From positions 1 through 27,488 of IMG/VR virus record IMGVR_UViG_3300031773_000030: DNA of 27,488 bases; one strand, written 5' to 3'. Numbering within the stretch: the stretch's first letter is position 1; the number at the start of each line of letters is the position of its first letter. A program made the position numbers and the translations under genes. Of the stretch, positions 5,888 through 14,893 are shown piece by piece. Origin of the DNA: a virus. The notes beneath the pieces were generated by a model. That model saw only the letters and a program-made list of their open reading frames with translations, did not search any database and was not told where the DNA came from.

Positions 5888-7313
5888 TTGATAACCTCCT
5901 TATATGGCGTGAAGGAGCCCAGTTTTTTAGTTGCCCTGCTCCTTGCATGTCTTCTAATAACCTGCCCATTAAACTTAAAACATCTACTTGGTCATCGTTT
6001 TTACCTGCGTCAAATCTAAGCATTTCCAATCTTAAATCCTCCAACCACGGAGCCCCACGCAAGAAATATACTTTTCCAGAAGACATCCTTGCCTGTATCG
6101 CCCTTGCACGGGATCGCTTGTCGAACCTACTGGCAAAAGGAGTCCTAACGCAATACGACCTTCTTTCCCGTTGTCGCATGTTAATATATGGATCAAGAGA
6201 AGATCTGATTTGCCCTGCTTCTTCCGCCCATTGAATAGGCTTCCATTTGTCTACTAAGTCCAGAAATGCTTCTACCCATACATCGGAAACAGTTTGCCCT
6301 CTCCACCAATCAAGTATGTATAAATTATCTGCATCATCTACTCCACACACTCCATGCACGGTGTAATCGCCTTCTCCGTCTTTTGTAGCGTAATCACTTG
6401 CTCCATATAATCTTAAATTTTCTGGAGCCTCTTTTACGGTTTTGAACCAGTCGGCCAGAAAGTAACCCCCCTCTTCCGCTTGGGGATTTTGTTGGTATAA
6501 CGCACTCCAGTCACGGGACCCAATAACAGATTTAATTTGCAATAAGCGGTCTTCAGGATACCAGTCACTCCAAAGAGCTTCTCCTCTTTTTCTTCCTAAA
6601 AGGTCGTTGTCTTCTGCAAGGGCAGGAAGACTTATAACCTCCCACTTATCTCCACCATCATCCTCTTCGGCAATAAGTCTCCCTGCAAGATCATCATCGT
6701 GCCAACGGGTCTGAATAACCACAATGGCACCTTCAGGCATAAGACGGGTGTAGAGAACAGAACGATACCAATCCCATATTCGGTTTCGTATCGTTTCTGA
6801 GTCAGCTTCTTGACGGTCTTTTATCGGGTCATCAACTATGGCAAGATTGGCCCCTCTTCCCGTGATCGCCGTCCCTACGCCCGCCGCAATATATGCACCT
6901 CCTGTCTTTAGATGCCAACGATTTGCGGCCTGAGAGTCTTCGCTAAGTTTGGCATCGGGGAACACCTTGCCGTATACTCCACTGGAAACAAGGTTTCTTA
7001 CTTCACGCCCAAAGTCGGAAGACAATTCCGAGTTATAAGACGCAGATATAATTTGTGCTTTAGGATTCCTACCAAGATACCACGCAGGGAATCTACGGGT
7101 AGCTAATTCGCTTTTAGTATGACGGGGAGGGCAAAAAATCATTAATCGTTTACAATCACCAGACTCTACGCGCTGTAACGCACTTGCAATAACCTGATGG
7201 TGTGCCCCTACTTCAAAATCTGGTTTAGTCAGGGTCACAAAAGCCATAAGCTCCTCTCGGGCTTTACGCCTTTCCAATAAAGCAAGAGCCGCTTCTTCGG
7301 GGCTAATTGACAT
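5862..7313 (-). CDS. terL: Terminase large subunit (packaging ATPase/nuclease)
   Basis: 483 residues, the usual length. The protein powers DNA packaging into the prohead and cuts the concatemer. The N-terminal ATPase has a Walker-A-like CPPRHTKSE (61-69), as in terminases with a non-canonical P-loop, and a Walker B LAIVDD (157-162). 'QTRWHDDDLAGRL' (201-213) matches the coupling region of this family. The C-terminal nuclease shows GASDYA (Asp307), WAEEAGQI (about 362-369) and a final Asp cluster in DDQVDVLS, giving the acidic residues of an RNase-H-like site. The start overlaps the end of the SEC-C gene by 11 bases and has only a weak GAGAGA ribosome site, which suggests coupling. Confidence 0.95.
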   Translation of the reverse strand: MSISPEEAALALLERRKAREELMAFVTLTKPDFEVGAHHQVIASALQRVESGDCKRLMIFCPPRHTKSELATRRFPAWYLGRNPKAQIISASYNSELSSDFGREVRNLVSSGVYGKVFPDAKLSEDSQAANRWHLKTGGAYIAAGVGTAITGRGANLAIVDDPIKDRQEADSETIRNRIWDWYRSVLYTRLMPEGAIVVIQTRWHDDDLAGRLIAEEDDGGDKWEVISLPALAEDNDLLGRKRGEALWSDWYPEDRLLQIKSVIGSRDWSALYQQNPQAEEGGYFLADWFKTVKEAPENLRLYGASDYATKDGEGDYTVHGVCGVDDADNLYILDWWRGQTVSDVWVEAFLDLVDKWKPIQWAEEAGQIRSSLDPYINMRQRERRSYCVRTPFASRFDKRSRARAIQARMSSGKVYFLRGAPWLEDLRLEMLRFDAGKNDDQVDVLSLMGRLLEDMQGAGQLKNWAPSRHIRRLSNEAKGVAG

Positions 7314-9593: not shown

Positions 9594-9600
9594 TATCTTG

Positions 9601-9664
9601 AGGGGTGGATGGGGGTGATGAGCCCCTGTCTATTAAAAGGCAGTCTGGGTCCCAAGCCCCAGAC
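9601..9664 (+). other. Paired intergenic hairpins (element A)
   Basis: Between two genes there is a G-run/C-run hairpin (GGGG at 9612-9615 with CCCC at 9623-9626) followed by TATTAAAAGG and a perfect 7-base-pair hairpin, GTCTGGG (9643-9649) with CCCAGAC (9658-9664). No T run follows, so it is not a classical terminator. The layout recurs at 11741 and 14838. Confidence 0.5.
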
Positions 9665-9691
9665 AATACACACCAACAGGGAGTCAACCTT

Positions 9692-10555
9692 ATGTTTCAG
9701 ACCATCATCAGTATCCTCAAAAATCTTGTCGGCATCGACAAGCCACTCGCATGGTGCAGTGCAGGTGCATCCGATTTTGCGGAAGGTAAAAACGGATGGA
9801 GCTACACTATCACCGCTACCCATGCCAATGCCCTCGACATCTACGGAGCCTACACAGCAAGTATCCGCATCCCATCCTACTCTGACATCGACCTTGAAGA
9901 GGGTGGAGTTCGGTTGCAGTCCCAGACGGGGTTCCGTTCGGAGGCGGATGCTAAGGCATGGATAGATGAATACCGTGCGGAGTGGGCGAGCAATAAATAC
10001 CTTGAGCTTGCGGAAATTTTACGGACTCAAGTTTTGGTTTTTATTCGCACGGGCTCTGCTGAGGCACTCTCAGCATTCGGCAGTCGTGATCATTTTACGG
10101 ACTATTGGCATAACCGCTGTCGATTATTAGTCGGAGTGCCCATACTTGAGGGGCACTGGACTAAGGATCACCTCTACACGTTACAGCAATTCGTGTTGAC
10201 CCGTGCATGGCATGAGTTTTCCAAATACACCGACACGGAGGCCAATACCCATCAGCACCGCTGTTTAGTGGGTTTGGAGGGCCGTGAGGAATGTCGATAC
10301 CATACGGAGATAGCCTACAAACTCGCCCACCTGATCAATCTCGCAGAGTCGATATTGGGTCAGCCCCAGTCCCGTGCAGTCGTGGAGCATAGCGAGGCTA
10401 TCGTAGTGACTGAGCGTGGTAGGTCGCAGTCGGCCAGTGCCCATGTAGAGATCCCAGAGTATTTCGATGCCAAGCCTCACGATATATCCGTAGAGGAATT
10501 GGACTGGGAACGTCAGCCCTGCAAACTCTCGACACACAGTCTGTATGCCGCCTAA
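9692..10555 (+). CDS. Unknown 287-residue early protein
   Basis: The frame is open from 9605, but the ATG at 9692 has the block's typical CAGGGAGTCAAC ribosome region, while earlier starts lie inside a hairpin element; the later start is chosen. The protein begins MFQTIISILKNLVGIDKP, has a predicted mixed fold, and contains a His/Cys-containing middle (HQHRC, REECRYH at about 189-210) that might bind metal. No family is recognised. It is followed by a promoter and the long noncoding stretch. Confidence 0.8.
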   Translation: MFQTIISILKNLVGIDKPLAWCSAGASDFAEGKNGWSYTITATHANALDIYGAYTASIRIPSYSDIDLEEGGVRLQSQTGFRSEADAKAWIDEYRAEWASNKYLELAEILRTQVLVFIRTGSAEALSAFGSRDHFTDYWHNRCRLLVGVPILEGHWTKDHLYTLQQFVLTRAWHEFSKYTDTEANTHQHRCLVGLEGREECRYHTEIAYKLAHLINLAESILGQPQSRAVVEHSEAIVVTERGRSQSASAHVEIPEYFDAKPHDISVEELDWERQPCKLSTHSLYAA

Positions 10556-10565
10556 AGTGGGGGAC

Positions 10566-10594
10566 TTGACAAGTCTAATTTAGTTTCGTATGTT
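10566..10594 (+). promoter_or_regulatory. Strong rightward promoter
   Basis: TTGACA (10566-10571), 17 bases, TATGTT (10589-10594). The -35 is embedded in a 13-base inverted repeat GACTTG-A-CAAGTC (10564-10576), which could be an operator. It reads into the long noncoding region that follows. Confidence 0.65.
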
Positions 10595-11040
10595 TGTATG
10601 GTAGTTCGCAGTATTGATCTTTGAAAATCGAATAAAGGCAGTAGGTTCGGAGGCGTGATAGACACTGAGCGATCAGGGTCGCGTCCTCTGGGGCGATCAG
10701 CACGGGGCAACGGCCTCGCACTCAGGCGATACCAAGAGGTTGATGAGAGCGTAAGGTGACGGGCTCAGTAGTCGGGCTGACGTAACACTGCCGACAAAAT
10801 TTTATCCACACTATCAGGAGGGACATCACGGTCTATTCAAATTAGTGCTACGGCAACACGTGAGGGACTACTGGTATCCACCCATCGCACATGCGACATA
10901 CCTAATACGGCTCAAGCCGATAACTGTATATAGTCTGACGAGATCAGCACGGCATACAGGGCGTAACGGTTCAAGGGGTAGGCCATACCAGTAGGTAAAC
11001 GCATAGGACGGTCCCAATGCCGTCCACCACCCATATCGGG
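10595..11040 (+). ncRNA. Candidate large structured noncoding RNA or leader
   Basis: About 450 bases with no convincing gene, starting right after the promoter at 10566. Two long-range stems are visible: GACACTGAGC (10661-10670) with GCTCAGTAGTC (10763-10773), ten pairs and one bulged A; and CTACTGGTAT (10868-10877) with ATACCAGTAG (10985-10994), ten perfect pairs. Inside or beside them are CCTCTGG/CCAAGAGG (10685-10691 with 10732-10739, one bulge), GTCGG/CCGAC (10771-10795), TCGC-ACAT-GCGA (10885-10896), CGGC-TCAA-GCCG (10908-10919) and GGACGG/CCGTCC (11006-11025). GATCAGCACGG is repeated at 10695 and 10942. A consensus DnaA box, TTATCCACA, lies at 10802-10810. The RNA could end within this interval or continue into the next gene as a leader. 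No known RNA family is recognised. Confidence 0.55.
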
Positions 11041-11435: not shown

Positions 11436-11731
11436 TGAAAAAATTTGAAACTGGAGCTTATATTGATAACGGGGACGGGGTGTGGAGTAATCAAGGTTTG
11501 TTTATGCGTTTTTGGAGTATGTGTCGAAATTTTAAAATTGATCGGTCAGACTTACCGTATCCTACAGAGGCTGATACAATTAATAATCATCCTGACGTTG
11601 ATGGAGTCTTCAATAAATTCATCGGGGCGTTGAATTCTGATAAACGCACGAAAGACGGGCACTACTGGGGATGGAGTGATGTCGAGAGCGGAGTGTTTGG
11701 CTACTGGGAGACAGACCCTGAGTTAGCATAA
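11435..11731 (+). CDS. Small unknown protein
   Basis: 98 residues, Trp/Phe/Asp-rich, with 'DGHYWGWSDVESGVFGYW' near the C-terminus. It overlaps the previous stop by one base (TAATG), so translation is probably coupled. No family is recognised. A hairpin pair follows. Confidence 0.75.
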   Translation: MKKFETGAYIDNGDGVWSNQGLFMRFWSMCRNFKIDRSDLPYPTEADTINNHPDVDGVFNKFIGALNSDKRTKDGHYWGWSDVESGVFGYWETDPELA

Positions 11732-11740
11732 CCTGAGAGG

Positions 11741-11790
11741 CAGGGGGGTGACCCCCTGTTAAAGGACAGCCCCCGTCTCAAGTCTGGGGC
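11741..11790 (+). other. Paired intergenic hairpins (element B)
   Basis: A perfect 7-base-pair stem CAGGGGG (11741-11747) with CCCCCTG (11752-11758) capped by a GTGA loop (a GNRA tetraloop in RNA), then TTAAAGG, then a second hairpin GCCCC (11769-11773) with GGGGC (11786-11790). No U tract follows. The next gene, the SNF2 helicase, starts 20 bases after. Confidence 0.55.
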
Positions 11791-11809: not shown

Positions 11810-13813
11810 ATGAGTAAAGAATTTGACATTCGACTGGTCAAATCGGGCAGTCGATACGAGGCACGATTCGATTTCGATTATTCGACCAAGGATTTTGTCA
11901 AAAATAATGGGTTTCGTTTCGACCCTGACAAAAAAACTTGGTGGACGCAGAAACTTGACGTAGCCCAGAAATTAGCCCCCTACGCCACGGAGGCGGTCCT
12001 ACGGGACTGGGAGGCAGTAGGCAAGGCATCGAAAGCCACTACGAGGGCAAGTAGGGCTACAGAGAGCGATTTTGAGGTTCCATGCCCCGAAGGATTATCC
12101 TACCTACCCTATCAACTCGCAGGCATCGAATTCATCGCCAGTCGCACTGCAAGCCTGCTTGCTGATGAGATGGGATTAGGCAAGACAATTACGCTCATAG
12201 GAGCATATAATTGGCTTACTCAACATGACCCAAAATTTGACGGGTCAGCACTCATCGTATGCCCTGCATCGCTCAAATTAAATTGGGAGCGCGAGCTACG
12301 TAAATGGTTAACTGTAGAGCGTAAGATTCATATTATTAATGGCTCTGCCAAACCCCCTGCTGATGCAGATATCTACATCATCAATTATGACATATTGAGC
12401 AAGCATAAGAAATTTCTGGATTCAAAACGATGGGGTTTAGTAGCCGTAGATGAGGCACATTATCTGAAGTCACCCAAAGCGAATCGCACTAAGCAAATAT
12501 TTGGATTCAGTAGTCGCACGGTCAAGTCGAAACAATATGCTCCGATCAGGGCATACAAAAAAGTTTTGATGACGGGCACTCCGATCACTAATCGACCTGT
12601 CGAGCTATGGCCTCTATTGAACTATTTAGATGACAAATATTGGGGGCTCAAGGTTTCAAAATCTCACTACGAAAAACATTTCTGTAACGCTCACAACAAT
12701 GGCTTTGGGTGGGACAATAAAGGTTCGGCCAATCGAACCGAATTGAGCCAGAGACTCAGAGAGAGCGTGATGATTCGCAGACTCAAATCTGAGGTGTTGA
12801 CTGACCTCCCAGATAAACAGCGTCAGGTCATCGAACTACAGGCCACTAAATCGGATCAGCGATTGATTGATAAAGAGTACGCCAAACTCAAAGCAGTCAT
12901 AGAGCAGGCACGGGTTAATGATACGGACGTTGATTTTGAGCAGTCGGTTAAGGAGTTGACGGGGTCATCGGTTGCATTCACCGAAATGGCACATGAGCGG
13001 AAACTGATAGGACTTCAGAAGGTCGATAGAGTTATCGAACATGTTTATCAGGTCGCTAAAGAGCATCCAGTAGTCGTATTCGCATGGCATGTTGATGTGA
13101 TCGACAAAATAGTCGATACACTCCGCCTCAATAGTATTTCGACAGTCAGGGTGACTGGAGATACTCCGCAGGATCAACGTCAGGTCGGAGTCGATGCTTT
13201 CCAAAATGGCGATGCAAGGGTATTCGTTGGCAACATTCAGAGTGCAGGCGTTGGTCTAACACTGACGGCCAGTAGCCATGTAGTATTTGCAGAGAATAAC
13301 TGGACACCTGCAAGTATCTCGCAGGCTGAAGACCGCTGTCATCGAATTGGCCAGAAGGATTCGGTATTGGTTCAGCACCTTGTTATCGAAGGCTCACTGG
13401 ACGCTCAGATAGCAAAAACGGTATGTGCCAAACAGGAATTGATCAGGGATACACTGGACGTGGATCACGGGGGACGTAAGGCGGTCAAGCCTGCCGTGTT
13501 CAAGGCTCCCGTAAACCGCCCTGTAACGCCTCCGAAGGTCCAGAGGGGCAATACCCCTACCGACACCCCGATCATCTCTGAGACGAGCCGTGAGGCGTGT
13601 CTAACGGCACTGGGGACACTGAGTGCAAACTGCGATGGAGCCCACGCTAAGGACGGCATGGGATTCAACGGACTTGACACAGATTTTGGCAAGTCTCTTG
13701 CAAGGGCAACACGGTTGTCTGACAAACAGTATCAGCACGGTAGCAAGTTAGTCCGTAAGTATCGCAGGCAACTACCTGATGCACTGGTAGACCTCGCATT
13801 AGGCATCAACTAA
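11810..13813 (+). CDS. SNF2-family DNA translocase/helicase
   Basis: 667 residues. The SNF2 motor is complete: motif I DEMGLGKT (119-126), motif II DEAH (214-217), motif III LMTGTP (253-258), and motifs V-VI with GVGLTLT and AEDRCHRIGQ (about 475-520). The N-terminal 50 residues (FDIRLVKSG...FRFDPDKKTWWT) look like the small DNA-binding module found before SMARCAL1-like motors. The last 70 residues (CDGAHAKDGMGFNGLD...) are a separate module recurring in phage and plasmid proteins. Such motors remodel protein-DNA complexes or reanneal forks; here that would be recombination or replication support, or countering host DNA-binding proteins. The ribosome site is AAGGAG. Confidence 0.9.
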   Translation: MSKEFDIRLVKSGSRYEARFDFDYSTKDFVKNNGFRFDPDKKTWWTQKLDVAQKLAPYATEAVLRDWEAVGKASKATTRASRATESDFEVPCPEGLSYLPYQLAGIEFIASRTASLLADEMGLGKTITLIGAYNWLTQHDPKFDGSALIVCPASLKLNWERELRKWLTVERKIHIINGSAKPPADADIYIINYDILSKHKKFLDSKRWGLVAVDEAHYLKSPKANRTKQIFGFSSRTVKSKQYAPIRAYKKVLMTGTPITNRPVELWPLLNYLDDKYWGLKVSKSHYEKHFCNAHNNGFGWDNKGSANRTELSQRLRESVMIRRLKSEVLTDLPDKQRQVIELQATKSDQRLIDKEYAKLKAVIEQARVNDTDVDFEQSVKELTGSSVAFTEMAHERKLIGLQKVDRVIEHVYQVAKEHPVVVFAWHVDVIDKIVDTLRLNSISTVRVTGDTPQDQRQVGVDAFQNGDARVFVGNIQSAGVGLTLTASSHVVFAENNWTPASISQAEDRCHRIGQKDSVLVQHLVIEGSLDAQIAKTVCAKQELIRDTLDVDHGGRKAVKPAVFKAPVNRPVTPPKVQRGNTPTDTPIISETSREACLTALGTLSANCDGAHAKDGMGFNGLDTDFGKSLARATRLSDKQYQHGSKLVRKYRRQLPDALVDLALGIN

Positions 13814-14825: not shown

Positions 14826-14837
14826 TTTGGTGATGGG

Positions 14838-14893
14838 TCTTGCCTCACCCTACGGGGCAAGATTAAACCGCAGGGAATGTCCAAAGCCATTCC
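14838..14893 (+). other. Paired intergenic hairpins (element D)
   Basis: TCTTGCC (14838-14844) pairs with GGCAAGA (14856-14862), extendable to nine pairs with one G-U and a 7-base loop. After ATTAAAC comes GGAATG (14874-14879) with CATTCC (14888-14893). A short T run (14900-14903) follows, so partial termination is possible. The layout matches elements A and B. Confidence 0.5.

Follow-up and report, generated by a model that had tools for sequence, protein, structure and literature searches.

A predicted type-P5 twister ribozyme with an enlarged P1 domain behind an rRNA-type boxA in a tailed-phage leader

The window analysed here (27,488 nucleotides of viral DNA, IMG/VR record IMGVR_UViG_3300031773_000030) contains a flagged interval, at positions 10566-11040, which consists of three parts, a promoter with a boxA, a variable leader and a twister, rather than forming a single large RNA of an unrecognised type. 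On sequence grounds, its 3' part (10859-11025) is almost certainly a twister ribozyme, for which self-cleavage is predicted, and the element at 10614-10634 is very probably a boxA of the rRNA type, as judged by its identity with rRNA leaders. The ribozyme architecture, its covariation, its placement before ATG codons and the identity of the boxA with rRNA leaders were obtained by computation. The best explanation for these features, and in our opinion a likely one, is a leader with an rRNA-type boxA combined with twisters that would cut a polycistronic transcript before its genes, the boxA acting through Nus binding. The coordinates of all features are provided in Table 1.

Table 1. Position and characteristics of the elements described in the window.
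Feature	Position	Strand	Basis or remarks
Promoter TTGACA-N17-TATGTT	10566-10594	+	10 of 12 consensus positions; transcription start about 10601
rRNA-operon-type boxA (putative) TTGATCTTTGAAAATCGAATA	10614-10634	+	20 of 21 positions identical in L005
Variable leader segment	10635-10858	+	Holds the first long stem; about 225 nt; fold z about -0.6
Type-P5 twister ribozyme (predicted)	10859-11025	+	Descriptor match, covariation, 3'-half covariance model
Twister P2	10859-10861/10999-11001	+	CGU/ACG
Twister GAGGG	10862-10866	+	Conserved L1
Twister T1 pseudoknot	10864-10866/11013-11015	+	GGG/CCC
Twister P1	10868-10877/10985-10994	+	Second, perfect long stem of the first-pass annotation
P1 enlarged into a 127-nt multibranched domain	10868-10994	+	z -3.1; 1 of 200 shuffles equally good
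Twister UAA	10996-10998	+	Context of the predicted cut, between U and AA
Predicted self-cleavage site, between U and A	10996-10997	+	Homology with the twister U-A site (PMC5408937)
Twister T2 pseudoknot	11002-11003/11018-11019	+	CA/UG
Twister P4	11006-11011/11020-11025	+	Hairpin GGACGG-UCCCAAUG-CCGUCC
55-aa gene, one apparent membrane segment	11052-11219	+	Shine-Dalgarno GGGAG; ATG 26 nt past the ribozyme; first gene downstream of it
Type-P5 twister	9597-9664	+	Rfam 36.6 bits (cut-off 37.6), E 2.6e-6; precedes the 287-aa gene
Canonical type-P5 twister	11732-11787	+	Rfam RF02684, 44.7 bits, above the cut-off; only RNA reported by Rfam in the window
Type-P5 twister, probable fourth	14829-14893	+	E 3.9e-5 (3'-half model); full descriptor with covarying T1; below the Rfam threshold

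The 27.5-kb window comes from a tailed phage whose portal is of the P22 type, and the top match of its terminase among named phages was Pseudanabaena phage Pam1 (53% identity). Late genes are located on the minus strand as far as about 8.6 kb, while the other gene block begins at about 9.06 kb and is on the plus strand. The flagged interval is flanked by a 287-aa gene, ending at 10555, and by the 55-aa gene, whose positional counterpart in the related phage L005 (terminase 88% identical to that of the window) is a gene of 50 aa. The upstream gene had been listed as an ORF of 316 aa (9605-10555) with its start inside a twister; its true start is likely the ATG at 9692 (287 aa) and not 9605. The contig of an 85% relative (IMGVR_UViG_3300030107_003096) stops at the position equivalent to 10535, short of the ribozyme site, and a close homologue of exactly the 10859-11025 ribozyme was not found. 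Searches for closer relatives via the 55-aa protein, the helicase alone or DnaB yielded nothing useful. With respect to coding capacity, the description of the interval as noncoding is sustained: none of the ORFs of at least 25 aa inside it has a convincing start, and a coding region was rejected on this basis.

Along 10859-11025 the order of elements is CGU-GAGGG, P1, UAA-ACG, CA and the P4 hairpin, which matches that of the Rfam twister at 11732-11787, and P1, P2 and P4 are arranged in the type-P5 order with the right spacing. The conserved nucleotides of L1 and L4 (GAGNG, UAA, UCNCAA and the closing G-C of P4) are all present. The L1-L4 pseudoknot T1 pairs the three G with the three C, and in the L2-L4 pseudoknot T2 the pairing of CA with UG is a compensatory replacement of the usual GC with GC; AC with GU occupies this place in three other twisters. 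Rfam did not report this stretch, nor anything else in the flagged interval, at any E up to 5, and its gathering cut-off, which is a detection threshold and not a structural feature, was not reached by 10859-11025, which is attributed to the length of the 127-nt P1 insert and to a T2 of CA/UG instead of GC/GC. The first-pass annotation had recognised no known RNA family in the interval, a statement that fails for the 3' part, which we assign as a putative type-P5 twister with a long P1 insert.

A first twister descriptor found 10859-11025 and 9597-9664 in the window and gave no match in 200 whole-window shuffles, and the whole descriptor was likewise never matched when the region was shuffled 40,000 times. 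In its relaxed form, in which two T1 pairs had to match and were allowed to covary, it had four matches in the window, one of them at 14829-14893, compared with zero in 3.3 million strand-bases of other retrieved DNA. No match was obtained in Pseudanabaena phages Pam1 and Pan3, Microcystis phage Mwe-JY13 or CBW1004C-Prop1. Covariation was analysed in 15 type-P5 twisters, taken from the window phage, from its relatives and from three further contigs that carry a helicase gene, and aligned as ribozyme cores with trimmed P1 loops; a plain MAFFT alignment of the full ribozymes misaligned them. In this set 98.6% of the pair cells were standard and 16 of the 19 pairs varied on both sides, with the covariation in P2, T2 and part of P1 being partly circular, because the descriptor required those pairings. 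The covariation score was equalled in none of 500 shuffles, and no slide came near it. In addition, the middle T1 pair, not demanded by the first descriptor, covaries in step between G-C, A-U and U-A across the set. A covariance model of the 3' half, constructed from nine other twisters with the candidate left out, recovered both the candidate, with an E of 0.015, and the 14829 site, with the value given in Table 1. By itself, the 3' half of 10859-11025 scores weakly.

Beyond the flagged copy, the window phage has at least two and probably three more type-P5 twisters. The canonical one is located 700 bases downstream of the flagged ribozyme, between a 98-aa gene (ending at 11731) and a gene for a SNF2-type helicase (ATG at 11810), and that at 9597-9664 shows compensatory changes in the relative L002. 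In the 14829 site T1 carries a compensatory change (GAUGG/UCCAAA), one pair being U-A versus G-C in all 15 others, and the ATG of a 208-aa gene (14920) lies 26 nt later. Phage L005 contains five type-P5 twisters, all on one strand, and they precede the same SNF2-type helicase gene as in the window. Fourteen of the 15 twisters are followed, after 15-38 nt, by the ATG of an ORF that has a Shine-Dalgarno sequence (the exception, 111 nt), and those at 9597 and 11732 of the window and at 7017 and 3636 of L005 start within a few bases of the preceding stop codon. Given that each twister stands just before a gene, it is suggested that the phage cuts its own messages, and this placement would look like the pattern expected of processing sites in a polycistronic transcript. 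We therefore regard intercistronic message cutting, through predicted cleavage, as the probable function of these twisters.

The first-pass annotation had considered some 450 nt of the interval as one structured RNA whose regularity was unlikely by chance. This was not confirmed, as the whole 475 nt gave a z of -0.42, with 32 of 100 shuffles folding equally well, and the 5' half about -0.6; the fold signal is confined to the 3' domain 10868-10994, which does fold better than its shuffles (Table 1). Both long stems noted there exist in the sequence. The one now assigned to P1 is a perfect 10-bp helix, and the other (10661-10670/10763-10773), with 10 pairs and one bulge, is unsupported, as is the 5' half in general. 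The repeat GATCAGCACGG was also correctly reported, with two copies in the interval. Neither stem nor repeat is decisive alone, because a single perfect 10-bp stem, and likewise a single 11-mer repeat, arises in 2.6% of shuffles. The middle segment of 225 nt did not resemble the L005 leader significantly (equally good matches arose in 76 of 500 shuffles), and a homology between this segment and the P1 insert was discarded since it was not above shuffles. Other candidates were also rejected: a single large RNA of the GOLLD/ROOL kind, given the absence of an Rfam match and the whole-length z; a group I intron, suggested by a resemblance of AUAUAGUC, on which Rfam was equally silent; and a hammerhead in the 5' half (TTGATGAGAGCG...), whose expected GAAA partner was absent by eye and which had no Rfam match.

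The 127 nt of the enlarged domain include P1 itself, and other twister copies carry a short loop at this place. In L005, the type-P5 twister at 5487-5384 has a smaller structured P1 insert, and it is possible that this copy is an intermediate toward the large domain of the window. Protection of the 3' end of the leader, a spacer and a sensor are candidate roles for the enlarged P1; the insert could also slow or block the folding of the ribozyme. It must be considered that twisters with large P1 inserts escape standard models.

The promoter proposed in the first pass is among the two best sigma-70 matches between 9000 and 14000 and is conserved in L005, which has in common with the window CTTGACAAGT, a TAT[GC]TTT box and a distance of 19 nt from the -10 box to the boxA. 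The -35 box sits in CTTGACAAG (10565-10573), a near-perfect palindrome of 9 bases kept in L005 at about 8676-8667 (minus strand), which could be a repressor operator. The first-pass annotation had mentioned neither the rRNA-type boxA nor the further ribozymes ahead of neighbouring genes.

The boxA occurs once in the window. Its pattern TTGATCTTTGAAAATYGAATA, common to the 5' ends of the leaders of the window and L005, was present at 29 places in the 84,980 genomes searched, in which about 0.2 would be expected by chance (our estimate from base counts). Eight of these 29 matches (in 8 genome records) precede a 16S gene of the same strand by 88-150 nt. Another has an rRNA spacer position, past a 16S gene and behind a tRNA-Ile; many of the remaining matches are clostridial loci of different context. 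The 21-nt element was also observed in Clostridium and its phages (L122, L125, L128-L130, L134, L137, L146, L149-L151), where GTACGGTA or ATGCGGTA and a TATAAT-like box often come after it. The core GATCTTTGAAA agrees with the gamma-proteobacterial consensus GYTCTTTAANA at 9 of 11 positions (PMC5725501). In another phage (L113/L118) TTGATCTTTGAAAATYGAATA lies 14 nt after a TATAAT box and precedes about 600 nt without a clear gene; this leader (L118, 9267-9915, minus strand) has the promoter-boxA order of the window and is even longer, and neither a twister nor an Rfam match was found in it. In the window, L005 and L118 alike the boxA is placed shortly after the promoter and inside the transcript. 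Its role in rRNA operons is disputed between antitermination and ribosome assembly (PMC5725501, PMC4807359).

In the mechanism that we propose, the flagged interval would serve as 5' leader to a transcription unit of the phage that starts at about 10601. The rRNA-type boxA, within the first 35 nt, would recruit the host NusB/S10 (Nus factor) complex, with which RNA polymerase would traverse the extended untranslated leader and continue into the genes that follow. As soon as transcription had passed position 11025, the type-P5 twister would fold and cut its own strand between U10996 and A10997. One product would be a leader RNA of about 396 nt that has the P1 domain at its 3' end and a cyclic phosphate as terminus. 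The other would be a separate message starting with AAACGCA, in which the P4 hairpin comes after a few bases and is followed by the Shine-Dalgarno and ATG of the 55-aa gene. That the interval might be a leader of this small membrane protein gene had already been considered in the first pass, and this possibility is upheld. The other twisters would act on this transcript or on ones that overlap it, cutting shortly before the following gene, between 9634 and 9635, between 11760 and 11761 and probably between 14864 and 14865. As a result, the polycistronic transcript would be divided into defined segments, in each of which a hairpin at the 5' end would closely precede the ribosome-binding site, and message stability or stoichiometry may be affected. 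More tentatively, early expression in this phage lineage might combine rRNA-style antitermination at a true rRNA boxA with twister arrays cutting before many gene groups, the one large P1 domain serving to regulate or protect the leader once it is released.

It has to be weighed whether the main product is instead the leader of about 396 nt, as a stable noncoding RNA bearing the boxA, with its 3' end trimmed and protected by the P1 domain of the twister, and serving for example as a decoy for host NusB/S10. This would fit a leader with its own strong promoter and boxA, a product closed at its end by a stable helix of 10 or more pairs and the still longer L118 leader of the same promoter-boxA order. 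However, the middle 225 nt lack both a folding signal and sequence conservation between the window and L005, unlike a selected RNA product, and the other twisters sit between coding genes, where no such leader RNA exists, so that we consider this reading unlikely. Even less probable is a natural allosteric ribozyme, in which the enlarged P1 would be a ligand- or protein-sensing domain switching cleavage. The insert is structured beyond chance and directly on P1, and L005 has its smaller structured insert at the equivalent place; yet no conservation of the insert is known, and a sensor there would be expected to have weak leverage because P1 is reported as dispensable for twister cleavage (PMC5408937). 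The smallest probability of all, a very slight one, we give to chance resemblance, that is, an untranslated leader of the usual sort, in which a hairpin lies close to the ribosome-binding site and 10859-11025 is no ribozyme. The silence of Rfam and the modest E value of the 3'-half model would be in keeping with it, but the absence of descriptor matches in shuffled and background DNA and the further twisters of the same phage, at equivalent positions relative to genes, argue against it. Cutting of a polycistronic transcript behind a boxA-bearing leader is accordingly the reading that we prefer.

Twisters are widespread, and why they are enriched close to phage genes has been described as still unknown (PMC10085705). 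In this regard, several twisters of the same orientation per phage, nearly all 15-38 nt before a start codon, point to the cutting of polycistronic phage messages, and the presence of an rRNA-type boxA alongside them suggests that host machinery for rRNA transcription is borrowed by the phage for an untranslated leader. The lambda nut and HK022 put sites are antitermination leaders. As in these, an early cis RNA signal in the phage transcript would act on RNA polymerase; the window differs in that its boxA is of the rRNA type, and neither an N homologue nor put-like stem-loops were recognised, no boxB or N-type protein having been identified with it. The boxA of rRNA leaders, the NusB/S10 site, shares the 21-nt identity and the location close behind a strong promoter, whereas that of the window stands in a phage leader before small phage genes and a ribozyme, and not before rRNA. 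With type-P5 twisters (RF02684) the flagged copy has in common the P2-GAGNG-P1-UAA-P2'-T2-P4-L4 order, the U-A site and the double pseudoknot, and differs in the 127-nt branched domain in place of the P1 hairpin, in the CA/UG of T2 and in being silent to Rfam. In phage T7, RNase III cuts the polycistronic early mRNA between genes, just before ribosome-binding sites. The transcript of the window is likewise predicted to be cut between genes, by a self-cleaving RNA instead of a host enzyme, and its predicted ends are 5'-OH and 2',3'-cyclic phosphate.
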